DNA of 64,000 bases from Nesterenkonia xinjiangensis. Its GTDB lineage: Bacteria > Actinomycetota > Actinomycetes > Actinomycetales > Micrococcaceae. Shown piece by piece: positions 45,763 through 64,000 of the stretch (position 1 is its first letter; each line of letters opens with the position of its first letter). The stretch spans positions 682,001 through 746,000 of the forward strand of contig NZ_JACCFY010000001.1 of the NCBI RefSeq assembly GCF_013410745.1, read 5' to 3'. Made by a program: the position numbers and the translations under genes. The notes beneath the pieces were generated by a model. The model was not told the DNA's origin. It worked only from the letters and a program-made list of their open reading frames with translations, and ran no database searches.

Positions 45763-45836
45763 TCCACCGGCCCTTCAGCCGGGCGCATCTGCCGGACCGC
45801 CACGAAACACCGCACCAGAACTGCGAGGCCCACGCC

Positions 45837-47873
45837 ATGAACAGCATCATCACTCCGGAGCTCGTCAGCCTTGACGAGATCCGCCCCAGCGACAAGCGGG
45901 AGGTCATCGTCTCCCTGGCCTCCCGCGTCCAGCAGGCGGGCCGCACCACGGCCGCCGACTCCCTCGTCGCCGACGCCTGGGCACGTGAGGAGAAGTCCGC
46001 CACCGGCATGCCCGGCGGTGTGGCCATCCCACACTGCCGCACCTCGGCCGTCCACGAGGCTACGCTGGCCTTCGCCCGGCTGAACGAGCCGGTGGACTTC
46101 GGCGCCAAGGACGGCCCCGCCGACCTGGTGTTCTTCATCGCCGCGCCCGACGGCGCCGACAAGGCCCACCTGAAGATCCTCGCCGCCCTGGCCCGTTCGC
46201 TCGTGCGGAAGGACTTCGTCGCCGCCCTGCGCGAGGCCGCCGACGAGCAGCAAGTGGTGGACCTTGTCACCGAAGCGGTGGCCCCGGCGGTGGCCGAGCT
46301 TGAGGGCACCGCCGCCTCCCGGCCCGCCGACGCGGCACCCGCTGCGTCCGCGGCACCGGCCGCGCCCGCGCCGGGCACTCGGCGGCTGGTCGCCGTCACC
46401 GCCTGCCCCACCGGCATCGCCCACACCTACATGGCCGCCGACGCGATCAAGCAGGCCGCCGAGGAGAAGGGCGTGGAGATCCACGTCGAGACGCAGGGCT
46501 CGGCAGGCGCCACCGCGCTGCCCGCCGACGTCGTCTCGGCCGCCGACGCAGTGATCTTCGCCGTGGACGTCGACGTCCGGGACAAGGCCCGGTTCGCCGG
46601 CAAGCCCGTGATCCATGTGCCCGTCAAGCGCGGCATCGATGAGCCCCACGCGCTGGTCGACCGGGCGCTGGCCGCCGTGGACGACCCGAACGCCCCGCGC
46701 GTCTCCGCCGAGGAGTCCGGCGAGGAGTCCCACGCCGGCCCCGACGAGAGCTTCGGCAAGAAGACCCAGCGCGTGCTGATGACCGGTGTCTCCTACATGA
46801 TCCCGTTCGTCGCCGCCGGTGGCCTGCTCATCGCGCTGGGCTTCCTGCTCGGCGGATATGACATCACCGAGGTCGCGGACGACGTCGCACTCGGCAACAC
46901 TCTCTTCAACCTTCCCGACGGGGGGCTTCTCACCTACCTGGGCGCAGTGGCCTTCACGATCGGGGCGACCTCGATGGGATTCCTGGTGCCCGCCCTGGCC
47001 GGCTACATCGCCTACGGCATGGCCGACCGGCCCGGCATCGCCCCCGGCTTCACCGCCGGCATGGTCGCCGTGACCATGGACGCCGGATTCATCGGCGGCA
47101 TCGTCGGAGGTATCCTCGCCGGTGCCGTGGCAGCAGGCTTCCGCCGTCTGGAGGTGCCCCGCTGGCTGGCCGGCCTGATGCCGGTGGTCATCATCCCGCT
47201 GATCGCCACCGCCGTCTCCTCCGGTCTCATGTTCCTGCTGCTGGGCGGACCCATCGCCCAGCTGACCACAGCGCTGGAGTCCTGGCTGTCCGGAATGACC
47301 GGCACCGCCGCGGTCGTGCTGGGCATCGTGCTGGGGCTGATGATGTGCATCGACCTGGGCGGTCCGATCAACAAGGTGGCGTACTCCTTCGCCGTGGCCG
47401 GTCTCGCCGCCGGCTCCATCACGGACAACCCGGGCCCGCTGATGATCATGGCCGCGGTCATGGCCGCCGGCATGGTGCCGCCGCTGGGAATGGCGCTGGC
47501 CACCTTCCTGGACCGGAGCCTGTTCACCGTCGCAGAGCGGGAGAACGGCAAGACCGCGGTGCTGCTCGGTGCCGCGTTCATCTCCGAGGGGGCGATCCCG
47601 TTCGCCGCGGCCGACCCGCTGCGTGTGCTCCCCTCAGCGATGGCCGGCGGTGCATTGACCGGAGCCCTGACGATGGCCATGGGAGTCACCTCCCAGGCGC
47701 CGCACGGCGGCGCGTTCGTGTTCTTCGCGATCGACTCCTTCGTCCTCTTCACTCTGGCCGTTCTCGCCGGATCCGTGGTGACCGCCCTTGTGGTCATCGC
47801 TCTGAAGCGGTGGACCCGCAGCACCCCACCAGCAGTTCCGGCCGCCGCCCAGCCCGCGGCGGCGACCGCCTGA
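45837..47873 (+). CDS. fruA: PTS fructose transporter subunit IIABC
   Basis: One chain of 678 residues that imports and phosphorylates fructose. IIA domain (1-145) with phospho-His66 (GGVAIPHCRTS); an Ala/Pro linker (155-180); IIB domain with phospho-Cys190 (VTACPTGIAHTYMAADAI); then IIC, eight to ten helices from about residue 315, with the conserved MCIDLGGPINKVAY and SEGAIPFAAADPLRVLP. Domain order A-B-C is the actinobacterial form. Phosphate comes from PtsI through HPr, both encoded nearby. Confidence 0.95.
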   Translation: MNSIITPELVSLDEIRPSDKREVIVSLASRVQQAGRTTAADSLVADAWAREEKSATGMPGGVAIPHCRTSAVHEATLAFARLNEPVDFGAKDGPADLVFFIAAPDGADKAHLKILAALARSLVRKDFVAALREAADEQQVVDLVTEAVAPAVAELEGTAASRPADAAPAASAAPAAPAPGTRRLVAVTACPTGIAHTYMAADAIKQAAEEKGVEIHVETQGSAGATALPADVVSAADAVIFAVDVDVRDKARFAGKPVIHVPVKRGIDEPHALVDRALAAVDDPNAPRVSAEESGEESHAGPDESFGKKTQRVLMTGVSYMIPFVAAGGLLIALGFLLGGYDITEVADDVALGNTLFNLPDGGLLTYLGAVAFTIGATSMGFLVPALAGYIAYGMADRPGIAPGFTAGMVAVTMDAGFIGGIVGGILAGAVAAGFRRLEVPRWLAGLMPVVIIPLIATAVSSGLMFLLLGGPIAQLTTALESWLSGMTGTAAVVLGIVLGLMMCIDLGGPINKVAYSFAVAGLAAGSITDNPGPLMIMAAVMAAGMVPPLGMALATFLDRSLFTVAERENGKTAVLLGAAFISEGAIPFAAADPLRVLPSAMAGGALTGALTMAMGVTSQAPHGGAFVFFAIDSFVLFTLAVLAGSVVTALVVIALKRWTRSTPPAVPAAAQPAAATA

Positions 47874-47930
47874 CCGGAGCAGCTCCGCCGCCCCTCGGCC
47901 ACCCCCGGTGACCGGCCCCTGACCCCGCGA

Positions 47931-47970
47931 CGATGCGGCGGCCCCGGCAGACCCCGGGCCCGCCGCATCG
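47931..47970 (+). terminator. Terminator between fruA and ptsI
   Basis: An 11-bp perfect outer stem (47931-47941 and 47960-47970) with further pairing possible inside the C/G-rich loop. No U-tract. Confidence 0.6.
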
Positions 47971-48033
47971 GCGTGCTCCCGCGCGGTCCGCGTCACAGGC
48001 CGTCCCGCGTGCCCAGATCCGCACCGCACCACC

Positions 48034-48039
48034 TAGGAT
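48034..48039 (+). promoter_or_regulatory. -10 element for a probable leaderless ptsI transcript
   Basis: TAGGAT is six bases upstream of the ATG at 48046, and no ribosome site is seen, so transcription probably begins at or next to the start codon. Confidence 0.45.
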
Positions 48040-48045
48040 TCATCC

Positions 48046-49800
48046 ATGAGCTCCCCCGAGAACATCAGCACAGCCCCCGCTCAGCCTGCGAGCACCCTTC
48101 CGGGCACCCGGTTCACCGGAGTGGGGGTCTGCCCCGGACGCGCCGTCGGACCAGTGCTGTCCATGCCGGAGCCGGTCGCCGAACCGGAGAACGCCCCACG
48201 CGACTCGGGCCTCAGCGAGGCCAGCGCCGTCGAGTCCCTGGAGTCGGCCACGGCCGCCGTCGCCGAGCAGCTGCGCGCCCGCGCCGCGGAGGCCAGCGGG
48301 GACGCCAAGGGGGTGCTGGAGGCCACTGCCATGATGGCCACCGACTCCATGCTGAAGAAGGCGGCGCTCAAACGGATCTCTGGGGGCAAGACCGAAGAGC
48401 GGTCCTTCTACGAGGCTGCCGCCGAGGTCACCTCGATGCTCGCCTCCCTGGGCGGGAAGATGGCCGAGCGCCAGCGCGATGTCCGCGACGTGCGGGACCG
48501 CGTCATCGCACAGCTGCGCGGCATCACCCCACCGGGCATCCCGCACAGCGACACCCCGTTCATCCTGCTGGCTGAGGACCTCGCCCCGGCCGACACCGCC
48601 ACGCTGGACCCGCAGAAGGTCCTGGCGCTCGTCACCCAGGACGGCGGACCGCAGTCGCACACCGCGATCATCGCCCGCTCCCTGGACCTGCCTGCGGTGG
48701 TCGCCGCGCCCGGAGTGCTGCAGATCGCCGACGGCACCGAGGTCCACGTCGACGGCGCCGCCGGCGTCATCGACACCGGGATCACCGAGGAGCTCCGCGC
48801 CGAGGTGGAGGCCCACCGTGTACGCCGCGCGCAGATCTCCGCATTCGACGGCGACGGCCGGCTCGCCGACGGCGCCGCACTGCCGCTGCTGGCCAATGTG
48901 GGCAACGGCGCTGACGCGCGTGCCGCCGCGGCGGCGGGCGCCCAGGGCGTGGGGTTGTTCCGCACCGAGTTCCTCTTCTTCGACCGCGACTCCGAGCCGA
49001 GCCATGAGGAGCAGGTCTCCGCCTACCGCGAGGTCTTCGAGGCATTCACCTCCCGGGGCACCGCCGAGGCTCCGGCGAAGGTCGTGCTGCGCACCCTCGA
49101 CGCCGGCGCCGACAAGCCGCTGCCCTTCCTCACCGACTCCCAGGAGCCCAACCCGGCACTGGGCGTGCGCGGCTTCCGCACCGAGCTCTCCTCCCCCGGA
49201 GTGCTGGCCCGCCAGCTGGCCGCCGTCGCGGAGGCGGAGAAGGCTGCCGGGGAGGGCGTCGACGTCTGGGTGATGGCCCCGATGATCTCCACCGCCGAGG
49301 AGGCCGCCCAGTTCCGCACGATGGCCGAGCACGCAGGGCTGAAGACCCCAGGCGTGATGATCGAGGTGCCGGCGGCCGCGCTGACCGCCGGCCCGATCAC
49401 CGAAGAGGTCGAGTTCGTCTCCATCGGCACCAACGACCTCACCCAGTACACGATGGCCTCGGACCGTCAGCTGGGTTCGCTGGCCGCCCTCAACGACGCC
49501 TGGCAGCCTGCGGTGCTGCAGCTCATCGGCGCCACCGGCTCCGCCTCCCACGGCCCAGTGGGCGTCTGCGGCGAGGCGGCCGCGGACCCCGCACTGGCTC
49601 CGGTGCTGGTGGGACTCGGCGCGACCTCTCTGTCGATGAGTGCCGCGGCCCTGCCTTCGGTGGCCGCCGTGCTGCGCACCGTCAGTCCCGCCCAGGCCGA
49701 GGAGCTCGCCGCGGCCGCGACCGCCGCACGCTCCTCGTCCGAGGCCCGCGCCGCCGTCGTCGCCCAGCTGCCGGCGCTGCAGGAGCTGGGCCTCGCCTGA
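48046..49800 (+). CDS. ptsI: PTS enzyme I
   Basis: Cytoplasmic PEP-protein phosphotransferase, 584 residues, first enzyme of the PTS. Phospho-His205 lies in GGPQSHTAII (most family members have Thr-Ser-His; Gln-Ser-His is a mild variant). The PEP-binding barrel is shown by LFRTEFLFFDR, VLRTLDAGADKPLPF, GVMIEVPAAAL, SIGTNDLTQYTMASDR and the catalytic Cys in GVCGEAAADP. Shorter than the E. coli enzyme only by linker residues. Confidence 0.95.
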   Translation: MSSPENISTAPAQPASTLPGTRFTGVGVCPGRAVGPVLSMPEPVAEPENAPRDSGLSEASAVESLESATAAVAEQLRARAAEASGDAKGVLEATAMMATDSMLKKAALKRISGGKTEERSFYEAAAEVTSMLASLGGKMAERQRDVRDVRDRVIAQLRGITPPGIPHSDTPFILLAEDLAPADTATLDPQKVLALVTQDGGPQSHTAIIARSLDLPAVVAAPGVLQIADGTEVHVDGAAGVIDTGITEELRAEVEAHRVRRAQISAFDGDGRLADGAALPLLANVGNGADARAAAAAGAQGVGLFRTEFLFFDRDSEPSHEEQVSAYREVFEAFTSRGTAEAPAKVVLRTLDAGADKPLPFLTDSQEPNPALGVRGFRTELSSPGVLARQLAAVAEAEKAAGEGVDVWVMAPMISTAEEAAQFRTMAEHAGLKTPGVMIEVPAAALTAGPITEEVEFVSIGTNDLTQYTMASDRQLGSLAALNDAWQPAVLQLIGATGSASHGPVGVCGEAAADPALAPVLVGLGATSLSMSAAALPSVAAVLRTVSPAQAEELAAAATAARSSSEARAAVVAQLPALQELGLA

Positions 49801-53299: not shown

Positions 53300-53887
53300 G
53301 TGCCCTCCGCCCCATCTCCCTCCCCCGCACCCGGGTCCCGCGAACCGGCCCGCCACGACGCCGAGCTGACCGACTCTCTGGCCCGCGCCGAGGCGCTGAT
53401 CACCCTGACCCCTGACTACCCGGAGCCGGGAGTGCTCTTCCGTGACATCTCGGCGCTGCTGGTGGACGCCGAGGCACTGCGCACGGTCACCGAGGCGCTG
53501 ATCGCCCCCTTCGCCGGGACCTTCGACGTCGTCGCCGGGATCGAGGCCCGCGGCTTCCTCCTGGCCGGCACGATCGCCGCCACCTCAGGGGTCGGCATGC
53601 TGCCCATCCGCAAGGCCGGGAAGCTGCCGAACCCTGCCGCGAGCGTCGAATACCACCTGGAGTACGGCTCCGCGGTGATCGAGGCCCCCGGGGTGCTCGA
53701 GCCCGGAGCGCGGGTGCTGCTGGTGGATGATGTGCTCGCTACCGGAGGCACCCTGGCCGCCTCCCGGCAGATCGTCGCCGCGCTCGGTGGCGAGGTGGCC
53801 GGAGCCGCCGTCGTGCTCGAGCTCGAGGCACTGGGCGGCAGACGCACCGCCGGTGACGTGCACGCGCTGTTCCACGCCGCAGACTGA
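53300..53887 (+). CDS. apt: Adenine phosphoribosyltransferase
   Basis: Purine-salvage enzyme making AMP from adenine and PRPP, 195 residues. Motifs: TPDYPEPGVLFRDI, GIEARGFLLAG, PIRKAGKLP and the PRPP loop VLLVDDVLATGGT. GTG start; the first 20 residues are Pro/Ser-rich and not conserved, so a slightly later start is possible. Confidence 0.94.
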   Translation: MPSAPSPSPAPGSREPARHDAELTDSLARAEALITLTPDYPEPGVLFRDISALLVDAEALRTVTEALIAPFAGTFDVVAGIEARGFLLAGTIAATSGVGMLPIRKAGKLPNPAASVEYHLEYGSAVIEAPGVLEPGARVLLVDDVLATGGTLAASRQIVAALGGEVAGAAVVLELEALGGRRTAGDVHALFHAAD

Positions 53888-53897
53888 GGGGCCCCGA

Positions 53898-53927
53898 TTG
53901 GAACCGGACGCGCTTCTTCGGTAGCAT
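53898..53927 (+). promoter_or_regulatory. Probable promoter of tRNA-Ser
   Basis: TTGGAA and TAGCAT separated by 18 bases, ending 12 bases before the tRNA 5' end. Confidence 0.45.
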
Positions 53928-53939
53928 CTTCAGGTCTGA

Positions 53940-54030
53940 GGTGACGTGTCCGAGCGGCCGAAGGTGCGACACTCGAAATGTCGTGTACGGTAACCCCGTA
54001 CCGTGGGTTCAAATCCCACCGTCACCGCCA
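53940..54030 (+). tRNA. tRNA-Ser (anticodon CGA), CCA encoded
   Basis: Class II tRNA with acceptor GGTGACG/CGTCACC, anticodon stem CGACA/TGTCG around loop CTCGAAA, a long variable arm (GTACGG...CCGTAC) and a T arm with TTCAAAT. Discriminator G is followed by genomic CCA (54028-54030), unlike tRNA-Arg above. It borders the catabolic island. Confidence 0.96.
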
Positions 54031-54035
54031 GTTTC

Positions 54036-54073
54036 GAAGGCCCCTGACCAGGAGTTTCTGGTCGGGGGCCTTC
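54036..54073. terminator. Terminator after tRNA-Ser
   Basis: 16-bp stem (54036-54051 and 54058-54073) with a single G-T pair, GAGTTT loop and CTTTG after it. It can also end the convergent LacI gene. Confidence 0.85.
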
Positions 54074-54132
54074 GCTTTGTCCGGGTAGGCTTCGCGTGGC
54101 CTCCCCGTGTCCATGCGCAGCGTCGTCGAGGG

Positions 54133-55146
54133 TCACTCGGTCCGAAGGTCGCGCAGGGTCCCTCGCTCGATGAGCTCCGGTCGCAGGACGACACGCTGGG
54201 CAGGCTTCTCCCGCCCTTCCGGGCTCAGCCGTTGCACCAGCAGCCGTGCGGCGCTGGCTGCCATAGCGTCCAAGTCGTGCCCGATGGTCGAGAGCTGGAA
54301 CGCCTCCCAGGAGGCGAGGGGGATGTCGTCGAAGCCCAGCACGCTGAGATCGCTCGGCACCTGAATCCCTGCGGTCATCGCCGCGTTGATGACTCCCATC
54401 GCGATCACGTCATTGCCGCAGAAGACCGCCGTCGGCCACTGGTCCGACGGCCGATCGACCAGCTGGCGCAGGCCCCGCTCCCCCGTCTCAGATTCGAACG
54501 GACCCTCGAGGGTGTTCTCCTCAGCCAGCCCGACGCCGGCATCGGCCAGTCCCATGATGAATCCGAGCTTCCGCTCCCGCCCGGTGCTCGTCTGGTCGGG
54601 ACCGAATATCCCGGCGATGCGCCGATGACCCAGCTGGGTCAGGCGATGCGCGGCCATCCGCCCGCCCGCGACATTGTCCACCACGGCGGCATCCCCGCTG
54701 CCGTCTCCGGCCTCGCGGTTGAGGAAGACGAAAGGAAGGCCCCTCCGCCGGAGCTCCGCCGGCAGCGGCGAGCCGATGACCGTGGTCAGCAGCACCGCCC
54801 CGTCGATGGAGCCCGTCAGGAGCTGAGACGCGGCCATCCTCTGGTCCGACCGCTCCGTGAACACCATCATCCGGTACCCACGGGATTCCAGCTCATCGTG
54901 CAGCGGGGCGATGAGGTACGGATAGAACGGGTTGGTCAGGTCGCTGACGACGACGCCGATCCTGCGACTCTGCCGGGTGACCAGGCTGCGCCCGGCCTCG
55001 CTCGGGACGTAGCCGAGGGCCTCGGCAGCGTCGAGCACGGCCTGTCGGGTGCGGTCCGAGACCTTGGAATCCCCGCGGAGCGCGCGGGACACCGTCGGCT
55101 GCGAGACTCCTGCCAGCTTCGCGACGTCACGACTGGTGACTGCCAT
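54133..55146 (-). CDS. LacI family regulator of the catabolic island
   Basis: Repressor of 337 residues. N-terminal HTH and hinge (VTSRDVAKLAGVSQPTVSRALRGDSKV) followed by a periplasmic-binding-protein-like effector domain (IGVVVSDLTNPFYPYLIAPLHDEL, AVFCGNDVIAMGVINA, LSVLGFDDIPLASW). AGGAGG precedes the ATG. The matching TGNATNCGTATNCA-like sites at 58303 and 58414 are its likely targets. The effector is probably the imported compound or its first product. Confidence 0.92.
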   Translation of the reverse strand: MAVTSRDVAKLAGVSQPTVSRALRGDSKVSDRTRQAVLDAAEALGYVPSEAGRSLVTRQSRRIGVVVSDLTNPFYPYLIAPLHDELESRGYRMMVFTERSDQRMAASQLLTGSIDGAVLLTTVIGSPLPAELRRRGLPFVFLNREAGDGSGDAAVVDNVAGGRMAAHRLTQLGHRRIAGIFGPDQTSTGRERKLGFIMGLADAGVGLAEENTLEGPFESETGERGLRQLVDRPSDQWPTAVFCGNDVIAMGVINAAMTAGIQVPSDLSVLGFDDIPLASWEAFQLSTIGHDLDAMAASAARLLVQRLSPEGREKPAQRVVLRPELIERGTLRDLRTE

Positions 55147-55212
55147 TCCCCTCCTCCTCCCGCAGACGGCCGGGGACTGACCGGCGCCTCATACCCTCCG
55201 TCAGGCTGACCT

Positions 55213-56046
55213 TCATGGACAGCCTATCCAGTAGAGCTCCGGACGACGGTCGTCCCACACGCCATTGCGGGGGCCCAGCGATTTGTTCCTGGAGCTGGCG
55301 GGATCCAGGTCCGCGGTGAGCACCACAGGACGCGCCGGACCGTCGTCGCCGGTGGCAGGGCCGGCCGCCGGATACCCGGTGTTCTCACAGATCACGCTTC
55401 CCCCGATCCAGTCGACGCCTCTCTCGTGTCCGCAGCGGTCGGCCACCACGATATGCACCTTGAACGCTCCGGCCACGGCCTGAGCCTTCACGACTTCGAG
55501 AGGCCGCTCGCCGGCCGGCCGCTCCAGCAGGGGCCAGTTGCACGGAGCCGCGATGATCTCAGCACCGGCCGCTGCCGCGGTCCCCACCCAGTCGGACATC
55601 TCCAGGTCATAGCAGATCAGCACGGCCAACCTGCCCACCGCGGTGTCGATGACGAGCGGGGCGGCATCCCCCGGGGTGAAGAAGTCGGACTCCCGATCCC
55701 AGAGGTGGGCCTTCCTGTAGCACCCCAGGAGCTCACCGTCCTGGACGACCATCGCACTGTTGTGGACGGCGCCGCCCTCGCCCAGCTCGCAGAATCCGGC
55801 CACGATGACGCTTCCGGTTTCCTGCGACAGGCGTCGGATGCCGGTGACGTACGGTCCGTCCAGCGGTTGGGCGGCGAGCCGGGCCTCCTCGATCGACTCG
55901 AACACGTACCCGCTGAAGGCCAGCTCGGGGAGCACGATCAGCTGGGCTCCCGCCGACGCCGCCTCCCTCACTGCGGCGTCGACGGCCTCCGCACCGGGAT
56001 CGTCCACGTCCACGTCCACCTGACATGCGGCTACTCGGATCGTCAC
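55213..56046 (-). CDS. Nitrilase-superfamily C-N hydrolase
   Basis: Amidase-type hydrolase, 277 residues. The Glu-Lys-Cys triad is complete: Glu41 (LPELAFSGY), Lys112 (YRKAHLWD) and Cys145 (VLICYDLEM). Family members hydrolyse amides, carbamoyl groups or nitriles. It follows the bicupin gene after seven bases and so belongs to the minus-strand arm of the island, suggesting that the catabolised compound or an intermediate carries an amide or carbamoyl group. GTG start. Confidence 0.88.
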   Translation of the reverse strand: MTIRVAACQVDVDVDDPGAEAVDAAVREAASAGAQLIVLPELAFSGYVFESIEEARLAAQPLDGPYVTGIRRLSQETGSVIVAGFCELGEGGAVHNSAMVVQDGELLGCYRKAHLWDRESDFFTPGDAAPLVIDTAVGRLAVLICYDLEMSDWVGTAAAAGAEIIAAPCNWPLLERPAGERPLEVVKAQAVAGAFKVHIVVADRCGHERGVDWIGGSVICENTGYPAAGPATGDDGPARPVVLTADLDPASSRNKSLGPRNGVWDDRRPELYWIGCP

Positions 56047-56053
56047 CGCGGGC

Positions 56054-57220
56054 TCAGTCGTCCTCCGTCGCCGTCCGCAGGACGGAGGCGGGGGCGCGGT
56101 AGTGGTTGGGGTCCAGGACCACGCCGGCCTCGGAGGCCGCGCGCACCGTCTCGTCCGACCATTCGATCAGCACTCGTCCGTCACCGCCGGTGACCACGAG
56201 CAGCTCGCCGGCGCCCACCTCGGCGGACCGCCCAGGCTCAGCATCGATGAGCTCCATGGATCGCCACGTGCCCTCAGGGATGGACAGGGTGTCCATGGGA
56301 CCGAGTTCCACGGCTCTCTCATCAGTGCCGTCACGGAGCGTGATCCGCCAGCGTCCGGCCTTGGCGGTGACCACCGAGACCTGATCATGACGGTGCGTGA
56401 GGACGCCCTCGCCCGGGACCGCGCGCAGCCAGGCCAGGTTGAAGCTGTGCGGCTCCGTCAGACGAGGCGCGGCACGGCGGTCCTCGCTCAGGCCATAGCC
56501 GATCACGAGGCTCAGCTCAGCACCGCCTCCGGGCAGCTCTGAACACAGGAACGGCCGCGTGACCCACTGTCGGTCGCCCTCCTGCGTAACGCGCGCCCGC
56601 ATTTGGTCGACCGAGTAGCTGTCGAGCGCATCGATCTCGGACTGGTCCATGGGGGTGATGAGGTCCGCGTCCTCCGGCACGACGTCTCCGGCCAGCGTGT
56701 CGATCAGCTGATTGGACGCGGTGAGGTGCAGCCCGTGGGACTCCGCCTCGCGCAAGACCGAGGGCCCCCAGATGATGCCGCCGGTGTCACTCTGCCCGAG
56801 CACCGTCAGGAGGATCCCGTCGTCGGGTCCGATGTTGGTGAAGCCCCGGAAGATCCACGACGGGACGGAGATGACGTCGCCGTCGGTGGAGACGTACTCC
56901 CCCTGCTGACCGTCGGCACCCCAGCGGACGCGGAACTCCCCGCCGAAGTTGATGAACACCTCAGCGGTGAAGTGCAGGTGCAGGCTGTTCGTCAGGCCAT
57001 TGGGCATTCCCGCCGCCCCCAGGTTGAATCCGTGATCCTCCTGGAGATTGATGAACTGCTCGGAGCTCTGGGAGACCCCCACGCCGATGAACGAGTAGTT
57101 GTCCTTCTTGTCCGACCCCGGTGTGCGGCAGTCGATGAACGCCGCCTTGCACGGCACCCAGTCCTGACGCAGGATCGTCCGCTTCTCGAGCTCCTGGTCG
57201 AAGGTGATGGTCTCTGTCAT
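56054..57220 (-). CDS. Bicupin protein, possible ring-cleaving dioxygenase or isomerase
   Basis: A 388-residue protein with two cupin barrels. The N-terminal cupin has a full metal motif (SLHLHFTAEVFINFGGEF: His-X-His-X4-Glu). The C-terminal cupin has THRHDQVSVV, in which Gln takes the usual Glu position, so it may not bind metal. Bicupins include gentisate-type dioxygenases, quercetinases and isomerases; the overall sequence does not let me choose. AAGGAGAG precedes the ATG. Second gene of the minus-strand arm. Confidence 0.72.
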   Translation of the reverse strand: MTETITFDQELEKRTILRQDWVPCKAAFIDCRTPGSDKKDNYSFIGVGVSQSSEQFINLQEDHGFNLGAAGMPNGLTNSLHLHFTAEVFINFGGEFRVRWGADGQQGEYVSTDGDVISVPSWIFRGFTNIGPDDGILLTVLGQSDTGGIIWGPSVLREAESHGLHLTASNQLIDTLAGDVVPEDADLITPMDQSEIDALDSYSVDQMRARVTQEGDRQWVTRPFLCSELPGGGAELSLVIGYGLSEDRRAAPRLTEPHSFNLAWLRAVPGEGVLTHRHDQVSVVTAKAGRWRITLRDGTDERAVELGPMDTLSIPEGTWRSMELIDAEPGRSAEVGAGELLVVTGGDGRVLIEWSDETVRAASEAGVVLDPNHYRAPASVLRTATEDD

Positions 57221-57250
57221 GATGTCTCTCCTTGTTGCTGCCTGCAGACG

Positions 57251-58246
57251 TCAGTAGATGTTGGTGAAGGGCACGTCGCCGTCACCGCGGGTGCTGTTGA
57301 TCTGGGAGCGGAGGGCGATCTCGTCGTAGACCCGAACCTCCCTCTCGATGCGCCCGTCCCGGATGAGGAACTGCGAGATGCCCAGCACGTCCACAGGCTT
57401 CCCCGTCAGCGGGCCGAAATGGTCCATGCCGCTGTAGGTGCCGGTCATCTTCCAGGTCACCGCGACGCGCAGCCCGGCATAGCGCTCCGCGTGGTTGGTC
57501 TGGACGTCCCGGACTTCGAACTGTGCGTCGGGGAACGGCGAGAGCATCCGGAGGAGTTCCCGCTGGTATCCGTCAGGACGGAGCACGGTCCGGTCACCAA
57601 TGGTGTGGAGGAAGAGGTCGCGCACCATGAAATCGGGCAGTCGGCTCAGATCCCGGCGGTTCCACACGGTCTCGATGAACTCCAGGACCATCTCGCACTC
57701 AGAGCGGAAGTCGTCCGGGCGCGGCCCGCTGTCGCCGACGCTCAGGACGTCTTCCGGAGCCGGCTCGAGGAAGGACCCCACGTAGCCCTGGAACGTCCTG
57801 CTGCGCGCCACCTCGTCGGGGTCCTGGCCCAACTGGAGCACATGGGCGAGATCATCACGCGCGACCCACTCCTCGACCATGCGACCGCGACGGTAGAGGC
57901 AGTTCGCGATCGTCCGGTGTCGGATCTCCTGGGGCGACGCACCGATGGACAGCGCGTCGGAGGAGAAGACCAGGTGGGAGCTCAGAAACGCGTCGTCTCC
58001 ACGAGCCTCCCAGATGACGTCCTCCGCCTGGCCAACATGCTGAGGAGTCTCCGCGATCCGCATCAGGGAGCCTTCGACGACGCCGTCGCGACCGACCACC
58101 GTGCCGAGCGAACCGTGGACGATCGAGTCCGGCTGATAGTTCTCCTCGATGAATCCGATGTTTCGTTGCACCCAGATCAGATCAGTCACCTCGCGGATGA
58201 AATCGTCCGGGTCCTGCCACGGCTCATAGGCCACCTTGTCCAGCAT
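57251..58246 (-). CDS. Tandem NTF2-like (SnoaL-type) domain protein
   Basis: A 331-residue protein with two SnoaL/NTF2-like alpha-beta cones, about residues 10-150 (IEENYQPDSIVHGSLGTVVGRDGV) and 190-325 (NRRDLSRLPDFMVRDLFLHTIGDRTVLRPDGYQ). Such domains act as polyketide cyclases, dehydratases, isomerases or ligand carriers. I start at the ATG at 58246 after an AGGAGGAG element; a longer frame would cross the operator region. First gene of the minus-strand arm, next to the bicupin. Confidence 0.75.
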   Translation of the reverse strand: MLDKVAYEPWQDPDDFIREVTDLIWVQRNIGFIEENYQPDSIVHGSLGTVVGRDGVVEGSLMRIAETPQHVGQAEDVIWEARGDDAFLSSHLVFSSDALSIGASPQEIRHRTIANCLYRRGRMVEEWVARDDLAHVLQLGQDPDEVARSRTFQGYVGSFLEPAPEDVLSVGDSGPRPDDFRSECEMVLEFIETVWNRRDLSRLPDFMVRDLFLHTIGDRTVLRPDGYQRELLRMLSPFPDAQFEVRDVQTNHAERYAGLRVAVTWKMTGTYSGMDHFGPLTGKPVDVLGISQFLIRDGRIEREVRVYDEIALRSQINSTRGDGDVPFTNIY

Positions 58247-58302
58247 GCTCTCGCTCTCCTCCTCGTCGTCGACTCGCCCCGACCCTTCTGCGGATGACGG
58301 GG

Positions 58303-58316
58303 TGCATTCGTATGCA
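58303..58316. promoter_or_regulatory. LacI-type operator O1
   Basis: TGCATTCGTATGCA, a palindrome with one mismatched pair and the central CG of LacI/GalR sites. It directly follows the minus-strand -10 at 58316-58321. Confidence 0.65.
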
Positions 58317-58344
58317 TCGTAGGTGAGTGTCATTCCTCACGCAA
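58316..58344 (-). promoter_or_regulatory. Promoter of the minus-strand arm of the island
   Basis: Minus-strand TTGCGT (58339-58344) and TACGAT (58316-58321) with a 17-base spacer, about 70 bases upstream of the NTF2-like gene. Operator O1 covers the expected transcription start. Confidence 0.6.
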
Positions 58345-58382
58345 GAGGGATTCAGCGACTTTTCTACACTTTTTCCAAGCTC

Positions 58383-58412
58383 TTGACGCACACAGGGCGG
58401 GCATGCTTGATT
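58383..58412 (+). promoter_or_regulatory. Promoter of the plus-strand arm of the island
   Basis: TTGACG (58383-58388) and TTGATT (58407-58412) with an 18-base spacer, just before operator O2. Confidence 0.5.
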
Positions 58413-58413
58413 G

Positions 58414-58427
58414 TGTATACGTATTCA
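58414..58427. promoter_or_regulatory. LacI-type operator O2
   Basis: TGTATACGTATTCA, a palindrome with one mismatched pair, of the same pattern as O1 and 111 bases from it. It covers the expected start of transcription of the dehydrogenase operon. Confidence 0.65.
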
Positions 58428-58439
58428 GAAAGGTCATCC

Positions 58440-59765
58440 ATGGCGTATCACCTCAAATCAGCCACCACCTCCTCGTTCACGGACCGCACCCATGAGGACA
58501 CCTCGCAGCGCGTCCGCGCCATCGTGGAGGAGATCCGCAGGGACGGATCCGCCGCCGTCCGGCGGTACTCCGAGACATTCGACAGCTGGAACCCCGAGAC
58601 CTTCCGCCTCGATGAGGCCACGATCGACCGCGTCATCCGTTCCCTACCCCGGCAGGTCATCGATGACATCGTCTTCGTCCAGGACCAGGTCCGGAACTTC
58701 GCCCAGGCACAGCGGCAGTCCCTGCAGGACGTCGAGGTCGAGACGCTGCCCGGCGTGACCCTCGGTCACCGCCACATCCCCATCGACGCCGTGGGCGCGT
58801 ATATCCCCGGCGGCCGCTACCCCCTCACCGCATCAGCCCACATGACCATCGTGACCGCCAAGGTCGCAGGGGTTCCCCGAGTGGTGGCCTGCACCCCTCC
58901 GATTCGGGGCCAGGTCCCCGCGGCCACGATCGCAGCGATGCACCTGGCCGGAGCCGATGAGATCCACGTCCTCGGAGGGGTCCAGGCCGTCGCCTCGATG
59001 GCCGTCGGCACCGAGGAGATGGATCCCGTCAACCTGATCGCCGGCCCCGGCAATGCGTACGTGGCCGAGGCCAAACGCCAGCTGTTCGGCGAGGTGGGCA
59101 TCGACCTGTTCGCCGGTCCGACGGAGATCCTCATCGTCGCCGACGAGACGGCAGACCCGTTCACCGTCGCCGTCGACCTGCTGTCCCAGGCAGAGCACGG
59201 CCCGGATTCCCCGGCCGTCCTGGTGACGACGTCGGACAGCCTCGGTCGCAAGGTCATGGAGCTGGTCGAGAAGATCCTGCCCGGTATGTCGACGGAGGAC
59301 TTCGCCGCCCCTGCCTGGCGCGACCATGGCCAGGTCGTGGTCTGCGACGATCTCGACGAGGCTTGGTCGGTCGCAGACTCCATGGCCTTCGAACACGTCC
59401 AGGTGTTCACCGCAGAGCCCCGGGAGGCGCTTGACCGCATGTCGAACTACGGTGCGCTGTTCCTCGGCGAGGAGACGTGCGTCTCCTACGGGGACAAGGT
59501 CATCGGGACCAACCACGTCCTGCCGACCCTCGGCGCGTCCCGCTACACGGGAGGCCTCTGGGTCGGCAAGTATCTGAAGACGGCCACCTATCAGAGGATC
59601 ACCGACACCGGCAGCAGCGCAGAACTGGGCAGAGTGTGCGGCCGCGCGGCGCGCGTCGAGCTGTTCGAAGGTCATGCACGATCCGGTGACGTGCGGGCCT
59701 GGCGCTACGCCGGCGAGACCTTCGACTGGATCGACGAGGTCCTGGACAAGGAGGTCACCGCATGA
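58440..59765 (+). CDS. HisD-superfamily dehydrogenase, sulfopropanediol 3-dehydrogenase-like
   Basis: NAD-dependent zinc dehydrogenase, 441 residues. It keeps the histidinol-dehydrogenase fold residues: Gln and His zinc ligands in LLSQAEHGPDSPAVLV, Asp in SYGDKVIGTNHVLPT, His in FEGHARSGDV and the catalytic Glu-His in AFEHVQVF. However, GHRHIPIDAVGAYIPGGRYPLTASAHM and ASRYTGGLWVGKYLKTATYQR are signatures of the HpsN-like branch, which oxidises a terminal alcohol such as 2,3-dihydroxypropane-1-sulfonate. It is outside any his operon. AAAGG precedes the ATG at 58440. Substrate here unknown. Confidence 0.82.
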   Translation: MAYHLKSATTSSFTDRTHEDTSQRVRAIVEEIRRDGSAAVRRYSETFDSWNPETFRLDEATIDRVIRSLPRQVIDDIVFVQDQVRNFAQAQRQSLQDVEVETLPGVTLGHRHIPIDAVGAYIPGGRYPLTASAHMTIVTAKVAGVPRVVACTPPIRGQVPAATIAAMHLAGADEIHVLGGVQAVASMAVGTEEMDPVNLIAGPGNAYVAEAKRQLFGEVGIDLFAGPTEILIVADETADPFTVAVDLLSQAEHGPDSPAVLVTTSDSLGRKVMELVEKILPGMSTEDFAAPAWRDHGQVVVCDDLDEAWSVADSMAFEHVQVFTAEPREALDRMSNYGALFLGEETCVSYGDKVIGTNHVLPTLGASRYTGGLWVGKYLKTATYQRITDTGSSAELGRVCGRAARVELFEGHARSGDVRAWRYAGETFDWIDEVLDKEVTA

Positions 59766-60520
59766 GCGCGCTGACGGGCCGCACAGCCCTGGTGACCGGC
59801 GGCGGCACCGGCCTCGGAGCCGCCATCGCGACGGCACTGGTCCAGGAGGGCTGCCGCGTGGTGGTCGTCGGCCGACGCGAGGCTCCGCTGCGGGCCCTCA
59901 CCGACGAGCTCGGAGCACCGGCGCATGCAGAGACCTGCGACGTCAGCGATCCCGACAGCGTGACGAGTCTGGCTGCACGTCTCAGCGACGAGGACATCTC
60001 CATCGTCATCAACAACGCCGGCGTCGCAGGCCCGGTCTCCCCGCTGGTCGATGTCTCCCCCGAGGAGTGGGATGACGTCTTCGGAGTCAATGTCCGCGGC
60101 ACGTTCCTGATCTGCCGCGCCTTCCTGCCGGGGATGATCCGCCGCGGTTCGGGGGACATCATCAACATCGCCTCGGTCTCCGGCAAGCGGCCGCTGACCG
60201 CTCGGACTCCCTATTGCGCCTCCAAGATGGCGGTCATCGGGCTGACCTCGACGCTGGCGTTCGAAGTCGGTGAGCATGGCATCTCGGTCAACTCCCTCTC
60301 ACCGGGCCCGGTGGAGAGCGCACGCATGGAACGCAACTTCCGCCTGGAGGCCGAACGGACAGGCACCGACCCGGAGACGGCGCGCGTCGCCTTCGCGGGT
60401 CGCTCCGCGCTGGGCCGGCTCGTCGACCCTGACGAAGTGGCCCGATCCGTCGTGGCGATGCTGGGGATGCCCGGGATGACCGGGGCAGACGTCGACCTCT
60501 CTGCTGGGATGGTGGCATGA
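59762..60520 (+). CDS. Short-chain dehydrogenase/reductase
   Basis: NAD(P)-dependent oxidoreductase, 252 residues, classical SDR. Cofactor motif TGGGTGLGAAIA, NNAGVAGP, catalytic Ser in NIASVSGKRP and YCASK. Start overlaps the stop of the dehydrogenase and the stop overlaps the aldolase, both by ATGA, so the three enzymes are produced together and probably work in sequence. Confidence 0.92.
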   Translation: MSALTGRTALVTGGGTGLGAAIATALVQEGCRVVVVGRREAPLRALTDELGAPAHAETCDVSDPDSVTSLAARLSDEDISIVINNAGVAGPVSPLVDVSPEEWDDVFGVNVRGTFLICRAFLPGMIRRGSGDIINIASVSGKRPLTARTPYCASKMAVIGLTSTLAFEVGEHGISVNSLSPGPVESARMERNFRLEAERTGTDPETARVAFAGRSALGRLVDPDEVARSVVAMLGMPGMTGADVDLSAGMVA

Positions 60521-61266
60521 TGTCCGCACCGAAGCGTCAGCTCAGACGACGGCTCTCCGACGGCGAGCAGGTGACCGGGTGCCTGCTGAGGATGCCGGCC
60601 GAGGAGACGGTGGAGATGCTCGGCGTCGCCGGATTCGACTTTGTGCTCATCGACTGTGAGCACGGCCCGGCCGACGTCACCGCGCTGCGACAGCACATCG
60701 CCCTGGCTCAGCTGCACGGCATGGCACCTCTGGTGCGGGTCGGGCTCCATGAGCATCAGCTCATCCTGCGTGCCCTGGACCAGGGTGCCGAAGGCATCGT
60801 GGCCCCGCACATCGACACAGCCTCCGATGCGGATGAGCTCGTCGACGCCGTGCACTACCCCCCGCTGGGCCACCGAGGCTTCGCGACCTACTCACGGGCG
60901 GGCCGATTCGGCACCGTCTCGGCCGACGAACACCACGCACGATCACGGCAGGAGACCTTGGTCATCGCGATGCTGGAGTCCCCGGAAGCCGCGGGGAACG
61001 CGGGAGAGATCCTCAGGCGCCCCGGGGTGGACGGCTGCCTGATCGGCACCGCGGATCTGCGGGCGTCCCTCGACTCCGGCAGCCTCACCTTCGCCGAGGC
61101 CTTGGCGCTGATCCGGCGTCAGTCCTGGGATGCAGGAAGCTTCAGAGCCGATCTGGCCTCCTCGCGCACGGATGCGGAGAAGGCACTGGACGACGGCGCC
61201 CAGCTCGTCGTCTACAACCTGGCCCACATCATGATGGACCTCTTCGGCACGCTCAGGGGATCCTGA
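60517..61266 (+). CDS. HpcH/HpaI-family aldolase
   Basis: Class II 2-oxo-acid-type aldolase, 249 residues. Catalytic His and acid in VLIDCEHGPADV, Arg in PLVRVGLHEH, metal Glu in MLESPEAAGN and metal Asp in GTADL. Family members split 4-hydroxy-2-oxo acids into pyruvate and an aldehyde. As last gene of the dehydrogenase-SDR-aldolase unit it probably performs the C-C cleavage that feeds central metabolism. ATGATG offers two adjacent starts. Confidence 0.88.
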   Translation: MMSAPKRQLRRRLSDGEQVTGCLLRMPAEETVEMLGVAGFDFVLIDCEHGPADVTALRQHIALAQLHGMAPLVRVGLHEHQLILRALDQGAEGIVAPHIDTASDADELVDAVHYPPLGHRGFATYSRAGRFGTVSADEHHARSRQETLVIAMLESPEAAGNAGEILRRPGVDGCLIGTADLRASLDSGSLTFAEALALIRRQSWDAGSFRADLASSRTDAEKALDDGAQLVVYNLAHIMMDLFGTLRGS

Positions 61267-61270
61267 CCTC

Positions 61271-61335
61271 CTGAGCACAGACGTGGACGGTGGCCGGACC
61301 TCATGGGTCTGACCACCGTCCACGTCTGTGTTCAG
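61271..61335. terminator. Long bidirectional terminator hairpin
   Basis: A 23-bp stem (61271-61293 and 61313-61335) with a single G-T pair and a 19-base loop that can pair further. It lies between the convergent aldolase and hydrolase genes and overlaps the hydrolase stop codon. Confidence 0.9.
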
Positions 61336-62048
61336 GTCCGCAACCAGCTCTCGACGCCGGCGACGACCCCCTGCGGATCCTCCAGGGTCAACAGGTGCCC
61401 TCTCTCCGGCAGCACGGTCAGGCGCGAGCCAGGCACCAGCGACTCCATCTCCCGGTGCGTGGCGACGGGACACAGCGCGTCCCTGCCCCCGGCGACGATC
61501 ATCGTCGGGACGCTGACCTTGGCAAGGGCGGCGCGCTCATCGACGCGAGTGGACTGCATCATCAGCTGGCTGGCCAGATCGGCGTCCCCGACCTCGTCCG
61601 CCATGTCCAGGACCATCGCCTCCAGAGCGTCGCGCGTGTCCGGAGCCAGGAGCGCCGGCAGCAGCTCCTCCTGGAGCTGCCGCGACGACGCGCCTGCCGT
61701 CAGCCGCTCCCTCAGTGCCTGCCAGCTCCTGAGCTGGCCCGGCGTCGGTGCACAGGGATTGGTCGCCATCAGACACAGACGCGACACGCGCCAGGGCGCG
61801 GTGCGAACCATGGCCATCGCCACGATCCCGCCGAGACTCAGCCCCGCGGGAGCGAATCGATCGGGCAGCCTCTCCAGCAGGCCGTCCACACAGTCCTCGA
61901 TGCTGGAACCGGTCAGCGACTCGCTGCGAAGCTCTCTCGTGACTCCCTGCGCTTCGAGTCTGGCGATGACCGGTTCCCACATCCGGGATGAGCAGTTCAT
62001 CCCCGGCAGGAACACCACCGGCCCCTCGGACGGCTGCACATCCCTCAC
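61332..62048 (-). CDS. Alpha/beta hydrolase of the catabolic island
   Basis: Cytoplasmic hydrolase, 238 residues, like enol-lactonases and small carboxylesterases. Opening VVFLPGMNCSSRMWEPV, nucleophile AGLSLGGIVA, catalytic Asp in VAGGRDALCPV and His in ERGHLLTLEDP. I start at the GTG at 62048, whose G is shared with the permease stop (TAGTG); the longer ATG frame lies inside the permease gene in another frame. Its role may be lactone or ester opening. Confidence 0.83.
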   Translation of the reverse strand: MRDVQPSEGPVVFLPGMNCSSRMWEPVIARLEAQGVTRELRSESLTGSSIEDCVDGLLERLPDRFAPAGLSLGGIVAMAMVRTAPWRVSRLCLMATNPCAPTPGQLRSWQALRERLTAGASSRQLQEELLPALLAPDTRDALEAMVLDMADEVGDADLASQLMMQSTRVDERAALAKVSVPTMIVAGGRDALCPVATHREMESLVPGSRLTVLPERGHLLTLEDPQGVVAGVESWLRT

Positions 62049-62932
62049 TACTTGCCAGCCCCTTCTGAGAGGCCTGCCACCAGGTACTTCTGGGCGACGA
62101 ACGCGAACAGGACGACCAGCAGGGTCAGAAGGATGGACGCCGCTCCGACCTGCTGCAGCATGGGCAGGGTCTGGCCCAGCTGCGAGGCGATGAACAGCGG
62201 AACCGTCATGGCCTGGGAATCCGTCAGGATCAGCGGTGTCAGGTACTCCTGGAAAGCGAAGAGGAACATGAAGACCCCTGCCGTGAGGATTCCCGGTCCC
62301 ATCATGGGGATGATGACCCTCCGCAGGGCTTGGAAGCGGGTGCACCCATCGATCATGGCGGCCTCATCCACCTCCTCCGGAAGCCTCACGAAGAAGTTTC
62401 TCAGCAGCCAGATGCTGAATGGCTGGTTGATCGCCACCAGGGCCGCCGAGAGCGCCAAGGTCGTGTCGTGGATGCCGAACTATCGGGACAGCTCGTACAT
62501 GGGCAGGACCACGGCCAGACGAGGCAGAGCCCGGAAGACGAGCGCGATGATGAGCAGGATCGCCGAGACGTACCCGGGCGCTCTCGCCAGGGCGTAGGCT
62601 GCCGGCAGCCCGATGACCAGGGCCACGATCGTGCTGATCACCGCGACGCCGAAGGTGTTGAGCAGGTACTGATAGAAGTTGGTCGCCTGCCACAGATCGA
62701 CGAACGCTTCCAGCGTCGGTTCGTAGGTCATGACAGGCGGGCTGACGAAAGCGACGTTCGTCGGCTTCGTCACTGACAGGATCGTCCAGATGAACGGCGC
62801 CAACATCGCCAGACAGACGCCGGCGAGGAAGAGTCCGCTCATCATCGGCGTCGCGCTGCGTCGGTGCCCGGCACTCCGCTGCCTGGAGACTCTGGACTTC
62901 CCCCTGACGATCATCTCTGCTGTGCCCGTCAT
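62048..62932 (-). pseudogene. MalG-type ABC sugar permease interrupted by an in-frame amber codon
   Basis: Reading frame of 294 codons for a carbohydrate ABC permease with six helices. The first 150 codons (to PMYELSR) are followed by TAG at 62480-62482, after which the same frame continues FGIHDTTLALSAALVAINQPFS, an EAA loop (EEVDEAAMIDGCTRFQALRRVIIPMMGPG) and the C-terminal helices to 62048. No bases are lost or gained. A CAG to TAG change would explain it, as Gln fits well there. Either the permease is lost, the stop is read through, or this is a sequencing error. ATGA overlap with the MalF-type gene. Confidence 0.85.
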
Positions 62933-63798
62933 AGGCTCCTCGCCTCCTTGATCGTGTTGCGAAGGAAGGGGATGAGCATGATGAGCATGATCACGATCGT
63001 CAGCACATTGATGACGCTCCCCAGTCCCAGCTGCTGGCCACCGTCTTGGAAAGCCATGTTGTAGGTGTACAGGGCAATTGATTCATTGCCGTTGAGAATG
63101 GCGTTCGGAGCCAGCGGTATCAGATTGTCGAAGACTCTCAGGACATCCATGATGGAAATGATGGCGACGAACCCGACCATCCCTCTGATGCTGGGCAGAA
63201 TCACGTGGAAATGCTTTCCGAGGGTGCCTGCCCCGTCGATCTTCGCCGCCTCGATGATCTCCTGTGGGACACCTTGGAGACCCGCCAGAAGGATCAGCAT
63301 GGAGAAGGGAAGCATCGCCCAGATGACGTTCAGAGCGATCATGATCCGGTTGGGCCACCTGTCCGTGAACCACAGGAGATCGTCCTGGCCGAACCATCCG
63401 AGGATCAGGTTCGCCACACCTCCGAAGTTGGTGTCGAAGAGCCACGAGAACATCGTGGCGCCCACGACGTTGGGAATCACGTAGGAGATGAGGAGGATCC
63501 CCAGGACCAGGGGCCTCATGCGACCGAGGTTGTTCACGAGCACAGCCAGGATGTAGCCGAGGACGATGACGACGAGCATGACGATCAGCGTGAGACCCAC
63601 GGTGAACACCACAGATGCCGCGAATCGCGGATCCGTGAGTGCCAGCATGTAGTTGTCCAGACCGACGAACGTCCCAGGCTCCCCGTAGTTGACGTCTTTC
63701 AGGCTCCACTCGACCGTCCGATACATCGGTACGAGCAGGAGACCGAACATCACCAACAGGCTCGGCAAGATCAGAATCCAGTATTCGCGTCTACTCAT
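62929..63798 (-). CDS. MalF-type ABC sugar permease
   Basis: Inner-membrane permease, 289 residues with six helices, for a carbohydrate or polyol importer. The EAA loop (VPQEIIEAAKIDGAGTLGKHFHVILPSIRG) that contacts the ATPase is intact. I use the ATG at 63798, preceded by GAAGGG; a GTG one codon earlier is possible. It partners with the interrupted MalG-type protein. No ATPase gene is seen in the window, so a shared MsmK/UgpC-type ATPase is likely. Confidence 0.92.
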   Translation of the reverse strand: MSRREYWILILPSLLVMFGLLLVPMYRTVEWSLKDVNYGEPGTFVGLDNYMLALTDPRFAASVVFTVGLTLIVMLVVIVLGYILAVLVNNLGRMRPLVLGILLISYVIPNVVGATMFSWLFDTNFGGVANLILGWFGQDDLLWFTDRWPNRIMIALNVIWAMLPFSMLILLAGLQGVPQEIIEAAKIDGAGTLGKHFHVILPSIRGMVGFVAIISIMDVLRVFDNLIPLAPNAILNGNESIALYTYNMAFQDGGQQLGLGSVINVLTIVIMLIMLIPFLRNTIKEARSL

Positions 63799-63840
63799 CA
63801 CGGCCCTTCACAGATCGCCCCGAAAGCTCTTGGGGACCCT

Positions 63841-64000
63841 TCACTCGGCATCCAGCACGTCCTGAGCATCGTCCTGCATCCGCTCCGCACCATCCTCAGG
63901 AGTGAGGTCGCCGTTGAACACCTGCGCGATGATCGGCAGGATGGCGTTGCCGACGCGGGGGATGTACGGGTGCGGCTCCACTGGCGGCGCAGAGCCGATC
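63841..64000 (-). CDS. Sugar-type ABC solute-binding protein, C-terminal fragment
   Basis: The frame runs from the window edge to a TGA at 63841-63843 and encodes about 53 residues ending in a pattern typical of family 1 receptors (VGNAILPIIAQVFNGDLTPEDGAERMQDDAQDVLDAE in part). It precedes the two permease genes after about 40 bases. The rest is outside the window. Confidence 0.8.
   Translation of the reverse strand, partial: IGSAPPVEPHPYIPRVGNAILPIIAQVFNGDLTPEDGAERMQDDAQDVLDAE

Follow-up and report, generated by a model that had tools for sequence, protein, structure and literature searches.

The 2,3-dihydroxypropane-1-sulfonate (DHPS) operon of Cupriavidus pinatubonensis combines a LacI regulator, the HisD-family dehydrogenase HpsN (PDB 8v35) and the short-chain dehydrogenase/reductase (SDR) HpsO, and HpsN is distinguished by a G-R-Y-A/S-H motif whose histidine binds the sulfonate, as described in PMC11382572. 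LacI, HisD-family and SDR genes, with the dehydrogenases in the same order, also occur in Nesterenkonia xinjiangensis, in an island of ∼13.7 kb at 54133–67843, numbered by the window, that is, the whole 64,000-nucleotide stretch that was analysed, whose edge cuts through the island. Both island HisD proteins, HisD1 and HisD2, match HpsN best in the PDB and have an Asp-Lys pair in common with it. However, the bicupin, double-NTF2 protein, nitrilase-type enzyme and HpaI-type aldolase of the island are all absent within 3 kb of the HpsN locus, and HpsN has GRYAH, with its histidine, where the island enzymes have G[RK][YF]P[LMI]. Three further systems resemble parts of the island. Histidinol dehydrogenase of histidine biosynthesis shares PF00815, a Glu-His pair and a metal-loop Asp with the island HisDs. 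The OtnI/OtnK/OtnC tetronate pathway adjoins the same bicupin, HpaI-type and hydrolase genes in Salinivibrio, Vibrio, Thioclava and Ensifer; in the island of this genome none of its genes was seen, HisD1 and the SDR standing there instead, and the operator described below is not shared. Finally, the galactarate/glucarate aldolase GarL (1dxe) is the closest solved relative of the island HpaI-type protein, which keeps the metal and acid-base residues but stays below the NCBIfam cut-offs for the named aldolases.

The island is a real, conserved catabolic unit, probably a single regulon, and is larger than first described. A first-pass annotation had listed a LacI gene, a nitrilase-type amidase, a bicupin, a double NTF2-like protein, one HisD-family dehydrogenase, an SDR, an HpcH/HpaI aldolase, an alpha/beta hydrolase and a sugar-type importer; all of these genes are present, while a solute-binding protein gene, a LysR gene and a second, different HisD enzyme were added from beyond or across the window edge. 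The genes are as follows.

54133..55146, minus strand, LacI-family regulator (PF00356 and Peripla_BP_3)
55213..56046, minus strand, nitrilase-superfamily C-N hydrolase (PF00795)
56054..57220, minus strand, bicupin (PF07883; structure model)
57251..58246, minus strand, tandem NTF2-like (SnoaL) protein (PF07366 in the second half; structure model)
58440..59765, plus strand, HisD1, HisD-family dehydrogenase (PF00815; tree)
59762..60520, plus strand, SDR (PF00106), overlapping HisD1 by 4 bases
60517..61266, plus strand, HpcH/HpaI-type aldolase (PF03328, above cut-off)
61332..62051, minus strand, alpha/beta hydrolase (PF12697), start at about 62050
62046..62932, minus strand, sugar-type ATP-binding cassette (ABC) permease 2, with an in-frame TAG at 62480–62482
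62929..63801, minus strand, sugar-type ABC permease 1, open frame
63841..65151, minus strand, solute-binding protein gene (3′ end, 63841..64000, inside the window)
65408..66730, minus strand, past the window edge, HisD2, second HisD-family gene (Pfam family call)
66926..67843, plus strand, past the window edge, LysR gene divergent to HisD2 (Pfam family call)

The HisD1 start is the ATG at which orthologue matches begin, while that of the hydrolase is unsettled, its listed frame beginning at 62345 and overlapping the permease gene. Both permeases were identified by sequence and conserved position, without a Pfam call. Pfam detects a single cupin and a single SnoaL domain, the second copies being seen through structure models and their matches. 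No ATPase gene was seen within the island; the genome encodes UgpC-type ATPases at other places, the best match being 54% identical.

Conservation of the gene set and its operator-like palindrome

The first-pass annotation had proposed a gene-neighbourhood search across Actinobacteria, and this linkage is indeed conserved there and reaches beyond that phylum. Scanning GTDB contigs with a bicupin alignment gave 55 relatives, most with most of the gene set, which together with L018, L019, L020 and L022 make up 59 loci; these are not independent, some end at contig ends or at the 10-kb flank, and presence was called by the identity thresholds of a script. On that basis the bicupin is present in 58 of the 59, LacI in 56, the double-NTF2 protein in 55, the HpaI-type aldolase in 54, the hydrolase in 53, the SDR and each permease in 52, HisD1 in 51, the solute-binding protein in 48, HisD2 in 47, the nitrilase in 43 and LysR in 29. 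Within the class, 4 of 296 genomes contain the bicupin, and the same four contain the double-NTF2 protein. No extra gene recurs convincingly among the loci by a rough clustering of open reading frames (ORFs), most clusters of which resemble antisense frames of island genes, and no assigned pathway for the gene set was found in the literature, mostly as judged from titles and the beginnings of abstracts.

A few loci depart from this pattern. Arthrobacter loci L073 and L074 retain the bicupin with a distant hydrolase and a distant HpaI-type protein, L074 also a distant double-NTF2 protein. In A. crusticola (L052), the importer is divergent, the double-NTF2 protein is distant and an M20 peptidase is present. 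The L073 variant (L073:12916-17364) adjoins resolvase, TniQ, TniB and Mu-type transposase genes and may be carried by a transposon. At L074:2890-5060, a 6-phosphogluconate-dehydrogenase-like protein, whose nearest family below cut-off is tartronate-semialdehyde reductase, and an aldo-keto reductase lie beside the hydrolase, bicupin and HpaI-type genes. One of the four class genomes (G168) has a second, lone double-NTF2 gene at L021:9011-10087, away from its island.

The divergent promoter between the double-NTF2 and HisD1 genes contains the palindrome TGTATACGTATTCA, and operator-like copies were located at the following positions.

58303..58316, unstranded, operator copy TGCATTCGTATGCA (one mismatch)
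58414..58427, unstranded, operator copy TGTATACGTATTCA
65182 and 65291, two operator copies upstream of the solute-binding protein gene, past the window edge

In the whole 3.57-Mb genome, TGNATACGTATNCA with at most one mismatch occurs at four places, all in island promoters and nowhere else, and the pattern read backward gave no match. Allowing up to three mismatches in a 20-kb stretch (L004), we found eight strand-matches at four places, a count equalled by none of 200 shuffles. Across the 59 loci (1.144 Mb) there are 119 copies of ATACGTAT, of which 85 lie within the 57 kb of upstream windows; 54 loci have at least one copy upstream of island genes, while the best of 63 other palindromes of equal A+T content reaches 6. 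These results, together with the conserved gene set, support the earlier proposal that one LacI controls a dedicated catabolic island, and we infer that LacI binds TGNATACGTATNCA. A generic LacI consensus, TGNNANCGNTNNCA, had no match in the window or in L004 and was replaced by the palindrome from the divergent promoter.

The palindrome extends to other phyla. Of 20 plasmid loci from three further phyla, 17 have all or part of a bicupin-type cluster, and L006, L007 and L008 have a HisD relative. With at most one mismatch, 19 matches fell in 10 of these loci, from Deinococcus, Martelella, Sinorhizobium, Roseomonas, Pantoea, Ruegeria, Priestia, Paracoccus, Octadecabacter and Geobacillus; read backward, the pattern gave none, and the counts for 58 permuted palindromes averaged 0.81 and reached 8 at most. 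In the other 10 plasmid loci, including those of Klebsiella, Novosphingobium and Roseibium and four Otn clusters, no such match was present. On a small Geobacillus plasmid (L007:1279-2636), a LacI gene and a HisD1-clade gene have two operator copies just upstream, and the gene table of this plasmid holds no further catabolic gene.

The HisD pair and the other enzymes

Three PF00815 genes are present in the genome, two in the island region and one at 2114851–2116095. In a tree of 44 rows with three true HisD rows (an intended fourth, L029, was left out because no frame was found), island HisD1 shares a clade (24 rows, support 100/99) with the central HisD genes from the other clusters, HisD2 groups with HpsN (97/96), which is on a long branch, and the third gene branches among the true HisD rows, separately from both island HisDs (100/100). 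The island enzymes do not group with the biosynthetic histidinol dehydrogenases of actinobacteria, the three true HisD rows separating at 100/100. Plasmid records name the HisD relatives "histidinol dehydrogenase," a misleading label.

The first-pass label "HpsN-type" did not hold for either enzyme. The motif reads G[RK][YF]P[LMI] in all 66 HisD1-assigned sequences, with L, M or I in place of the sulfonate-recognizing His126 (sequences were assigned by best match, and the tree places a few of the plasmid rows among them outside the HisD1 clade), and GRFP[LI] in 36/36 readable HisD2 rows, with 10 more gapped there. Because the sulfonate-binding histidine is absent, neither island HisD is an HpsN by this motif. 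We accordingly regard DHPS or another C3 sulfonate as a most improbable substrate: among solved structures HpsN is nearest to both HisDs, and HisD2 branches with it, although HpsN sits on a long branch, but His126 is missing from both groups, and no recurring extra gene among the loci resembled a sulfonate lyase in the ORF clustering. Equivalents of HpsN Glu318-His319 and Asp352-Lys353 are retained in both island HisDs, which have Asp-Lys as in HpsN, while the three true HisD rows have Asp-Tyr. The Asp-Lys pair may indicate an acidic substrate, and HisD1 could be a relative of the DHPS dehydrogenase that handles carboxylates.

The remaining enzymes largely keep the residues expected of their families. 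The nitrilase-type hydrolase has a Glu-Lys-Cys triad, Glu41 (43/45 aligned sequences), Lys112 (44/45) and Cys145 (44/45), which we take to be its catalytic residues. Conserved in the SDR are Ser138 (76/76), Tyr151 (75/76) and Lys155 (76/76), in the HpcH/HpaI-type aldolase the metal and acid-base residues His49, Glu154 and Asp180 (each 66/68) and Arg74 (67/68), and in the alpha/beta hydrolase Ser170 and Asp289 (each 62/63) and His317 (63/63). The bicupin model has a mean predicted local distance difference test (pLDDT) score of 85.8 and a bicupin fold, with HxHxxxE retained and His81, His83, Glu87 and Arg125 each found in 73/74 sequences. A PDB sequence search with a four-row bicupin alignment (A3) gave only weak matches, the best with E 0.068. 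The tandem NTF2 model (pLDDT 86.7) aligned in both halves to two-domain NTF2 proteins, the first 28 residues of the longer frame being disordered. Structure searches of the models matched folds but did not discriminate function, including gentisate or quercetin dioxygenase versus other cupins.

Gene exchanges and a candidate pathway

Related clusters, many of them on plasmids and some with the same operator, occur in Actinomycetota, Deinococcota, Bacillota and Pseudomonadota, and their composition varies. The Deinococcus cluster has two HisD genes, SDR, LacI, HpaI-type aldolase, hydrolase, a short cupin, an importer, three NTF2 proteins and a C-N hydrolase, and that of Pantoea has an amidase, HisD, two NTF2 proteins, LacI, a major facilitator superfamily (MFS) transporter, HisD, SDR, hydrolase, HpaI and cupin. 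Novosphingobium and Priestia plasmid records hold the same parts rearranged, and in the unannotated Sinorhizobium K101 record cluster parts were located by tblastn. An RraA-family protein stands where HpaI would be in Martelella, and RraA-like proteins (PF03737) likewise replace HpaI in the Roseibium, Ruegeria, Paracoccus and Octadecabacter clusters. Klebsiella has HisD, SDR, MFS, hydrolase, HpaI and cupin beside LacI and nothing more of the set, and in Rhodococcus koreensis the match is a distant cupin with no cluster of this kind around it. In Salinivibrio, Vibrio, Thioclava and Ensifer, the cupin, HpaI and hydrolase are kept with OtnK and an aldolase, and no HisD or SDR lies in the stretch; OtnI is present in Salinivibrio and Vibrio, Thioclava has a TIM-barrel protein and Ensifer has no annotated OtnI, and the three Otn proteins of Salinivibrio score above NCBIfam equivalog cut-offs. 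These exchanges suggest three modules, namely entry, core and disposal.

The C-N slot is filled by a CN_hydrolase here and in Deinococcus, by an M20 peptidase (PF01546) in A. crusticola and by an amidase (PF01425) in Pantoea and Priestia, where the family assignment was tested, and in Martelella and Novosphingobium, where it is annotated. Because unrelated C-N hydrolases occupy the same slot, a C-N bond step is likely part of the pathway. The amide in the first-pass proposal remains likely; the order given there (deamidated, oxidized twice, cleaved) is one possibility, and the gene swaps also fit HisD1 and SDR acting after the aldolase. In that proposal, a polyol- or sugar-like amide would be cut first, HisD1 and SDR would oxidize its CH2OH and CHOH groups to a 2-oxo acid and HpaI would split the product. 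We consider this unlikely, though worth keeping in view: the HisD1 and SDR genes overlap and are neighbours in most loci, in the order of the DHPS operon, but the bicupin, hydrolase, double-NTF2 protein and HisD2 would be left without a role, and HpaI-type genes are also found without HisD and SDR.

Our preferred reading, held tentatively and at slightly less than even confidence, is that one LacI regulon imports and degrades a nitrogen-containing polyhydroxylated acid in the three modules. LacI on TGNATACGTATNCA would release when the substrate or an intermediate is present, and the sugar-type ABC importer would take up the compound. In the entry module, the nitrilase-type enzyme (elsewhere a C-N hydrolase of one of the other two families) would cleave a C-N bond, HisD2 would convert a CH2OH group to a carboxylate, and the double-NTF2 protein might provide an acid-base step (isomerization, hydrolysis or elimination). 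The core, formed by the bicupin, the alpha/beta serine hydrolase and the HpaI-type or RraA aldolase, would cut the carbon skeleton to pyruvate and a hydroxylated C4 oxo-acid. HisD1 and SDR would then act in disposal on the CH(OH)-CH2OH end of the C4 acid or its precursor, a role that OtnK/OtnC/OtnI would take in some relatives; the Otn route leads to dihydroxyacetone phosphate according to PMC12540250. The pair of 6-phosphogluconate-dehydrogenase-like protein and aldo-keto reductase in L074 is a possible third disposal module. If the core gives pyruvate and an oxo-tetronate-like acid, the skeleton would have about seven carbons, and a retro-aldol cleavage giving 3-oxo-tetronate would require a tertiary alcohol bearing CH2OH.

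Several observations weigh against this reading. Permease 2 (62046–62932) is open except for the single in-frame TAG at 62480–62482, whereas 51 of the 52 matches with at least 45% identity in the 59 loci are open over at least 240 residues and one is broken; the stop could reflect either a recent loss of the uptake route in this strain or an assembly error. The nitrilase is missing from 16 of the 59 loci at the threshold used (some being cut by contig ends), and the Klebsiella cluster lacks both C-N hydrolase and NTF2 protein. The Otn clusters L087, L089, L090 and L095 have no operator at one mismatch or fewer, and three of the four have other regulator types (DeoR, DeoR and GntR); because the operator, and mostly the regulator type, are not shared, their end product may differ from that of the island. 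The HpaI-type protein reaches no NCBIfam equivalog cut-off (HpaI, GarL or YfaU-type). In cupins with four metal ligands, the fourth is usually the later His of the motif P-x-G-x2-H-x3-N; at this position the bicupin has Arg125 in 73/74 sequences, so that an oxygenase role is doubtful.

As a specific form of the nitrogen-containing acid pathway, mycosporine or gadusol catabolism is the leading substrate candidate, albeit a weak one that we judge improbable. Mycosporines and gadusols are C7 cyclohexenones in which a C(OH)(CH2OH) centre is combined with an enol methyl ether and with either an amino acid or an amino alcohol; glutaminol adds an amide. HisD2 would oxidize the amino-alcohol CH2OH, the nitrilase would open the amide, the double-NTF2 protein would free the amine and the core would open the ring, after which HpaI or RraA would cleave a tertiary-alcohol 4-hydroxy-2-oxo acid to pyruvate and a C4 unit, either oxaloacetate or, for gadusol, 3-oxo-tetronate. 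The chemistry fits, as C7 equals pyruvate plus C4 and a tertiary alcohol bearing CH2OH is present in these structures, and the RraA family includes a tertiary-alcohol-acid aldolase (ligK_PcmE, a weak match). A SolA-like oxidase in the Roseomonas cluster is also compatible, and the MetE-like protein (PF01717) of the two marine clusters, Ruegeria and Octadecabacter, could deal with a methyl group. On the other hand, nothing links the island directly to any mycosporine gene or compound, the SDR has no clear role for the deoxy form, the bicupin site is atypical for an oxygenase, and catabolic genes for these compounds were not found in the literature as represented by titles and the beginnings of abstracts. 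The MetE-like genes lie in two marine Rhodobacterales clusters (L100:12948-14685 and L104:12985-14106), one with an adjoining S-adenosylmethionine methyltransferase, and hint at a methyl group in the substrate of those clusters.

An ascorbate-like or tetronate-lactone pathway, in which the hydrolase would open an enol-lactone and the C4 acid would enter tetronate metabolism, seems quite improbable. The hydrolase weakly resembles enol-lactonases, Otn genes stand in some clusters, and an L074 protein belongs, below cut-offs, to the tartronate-semialdehyde reductase/L-threonate dehydrogenase family, but such a pathway would not need the C-N hydrolase, the double-NTF2 protein or HisD2. Pantothenate degradation was set aside, as it would leave the bicupin, the double-NTF2 protein, the hydrolase and one HisD idle.

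Surroundings and wider meaning

The G+C content of the island (54133–66754) is 0.659, against 0.692 and 0.695 on its two sides, and a tRNA-Ser (cga) gene at 53940–54030 lies directly beside its left end. No direct repeats of at least 14 bases were found between 53850–54150 and 66500–76000, and none of 20 related loci scanned, out of 55, had a tRNA beside it; for these reasons integration at tRNA-Ser is only a possibility. Left of the island, window positions 43961–49800 hold a DeoR-type regulator, a sugar kinase, a fructose-type phosphotransferase system (PTS) and enzyme I, by eye an ordinary PTS region.

That this regulon is kept in four phyla, in part down to its operator and in many cases on plasmids, suggests a natural substrate that is widely available and for whose breakdown we found no assigned genes. 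At least four of its proteins, HisD1, HisD2, the bicupin and the double-NTF2 protein, have reactions yet to be assigned, and the operator together with the pattern of gene swaps makes a substrate search practical. Should the improbable mycosporine interpretation prove true, the island and its relatives would represent the missing bacterial route that mineralizes mycosporines and gadusols, sunscreens of fungi, lichens and algae, and two HisD-family specificities and one bicupin reaction would be new, alongside a double-NTF2 enzyme releasing the amino acid.

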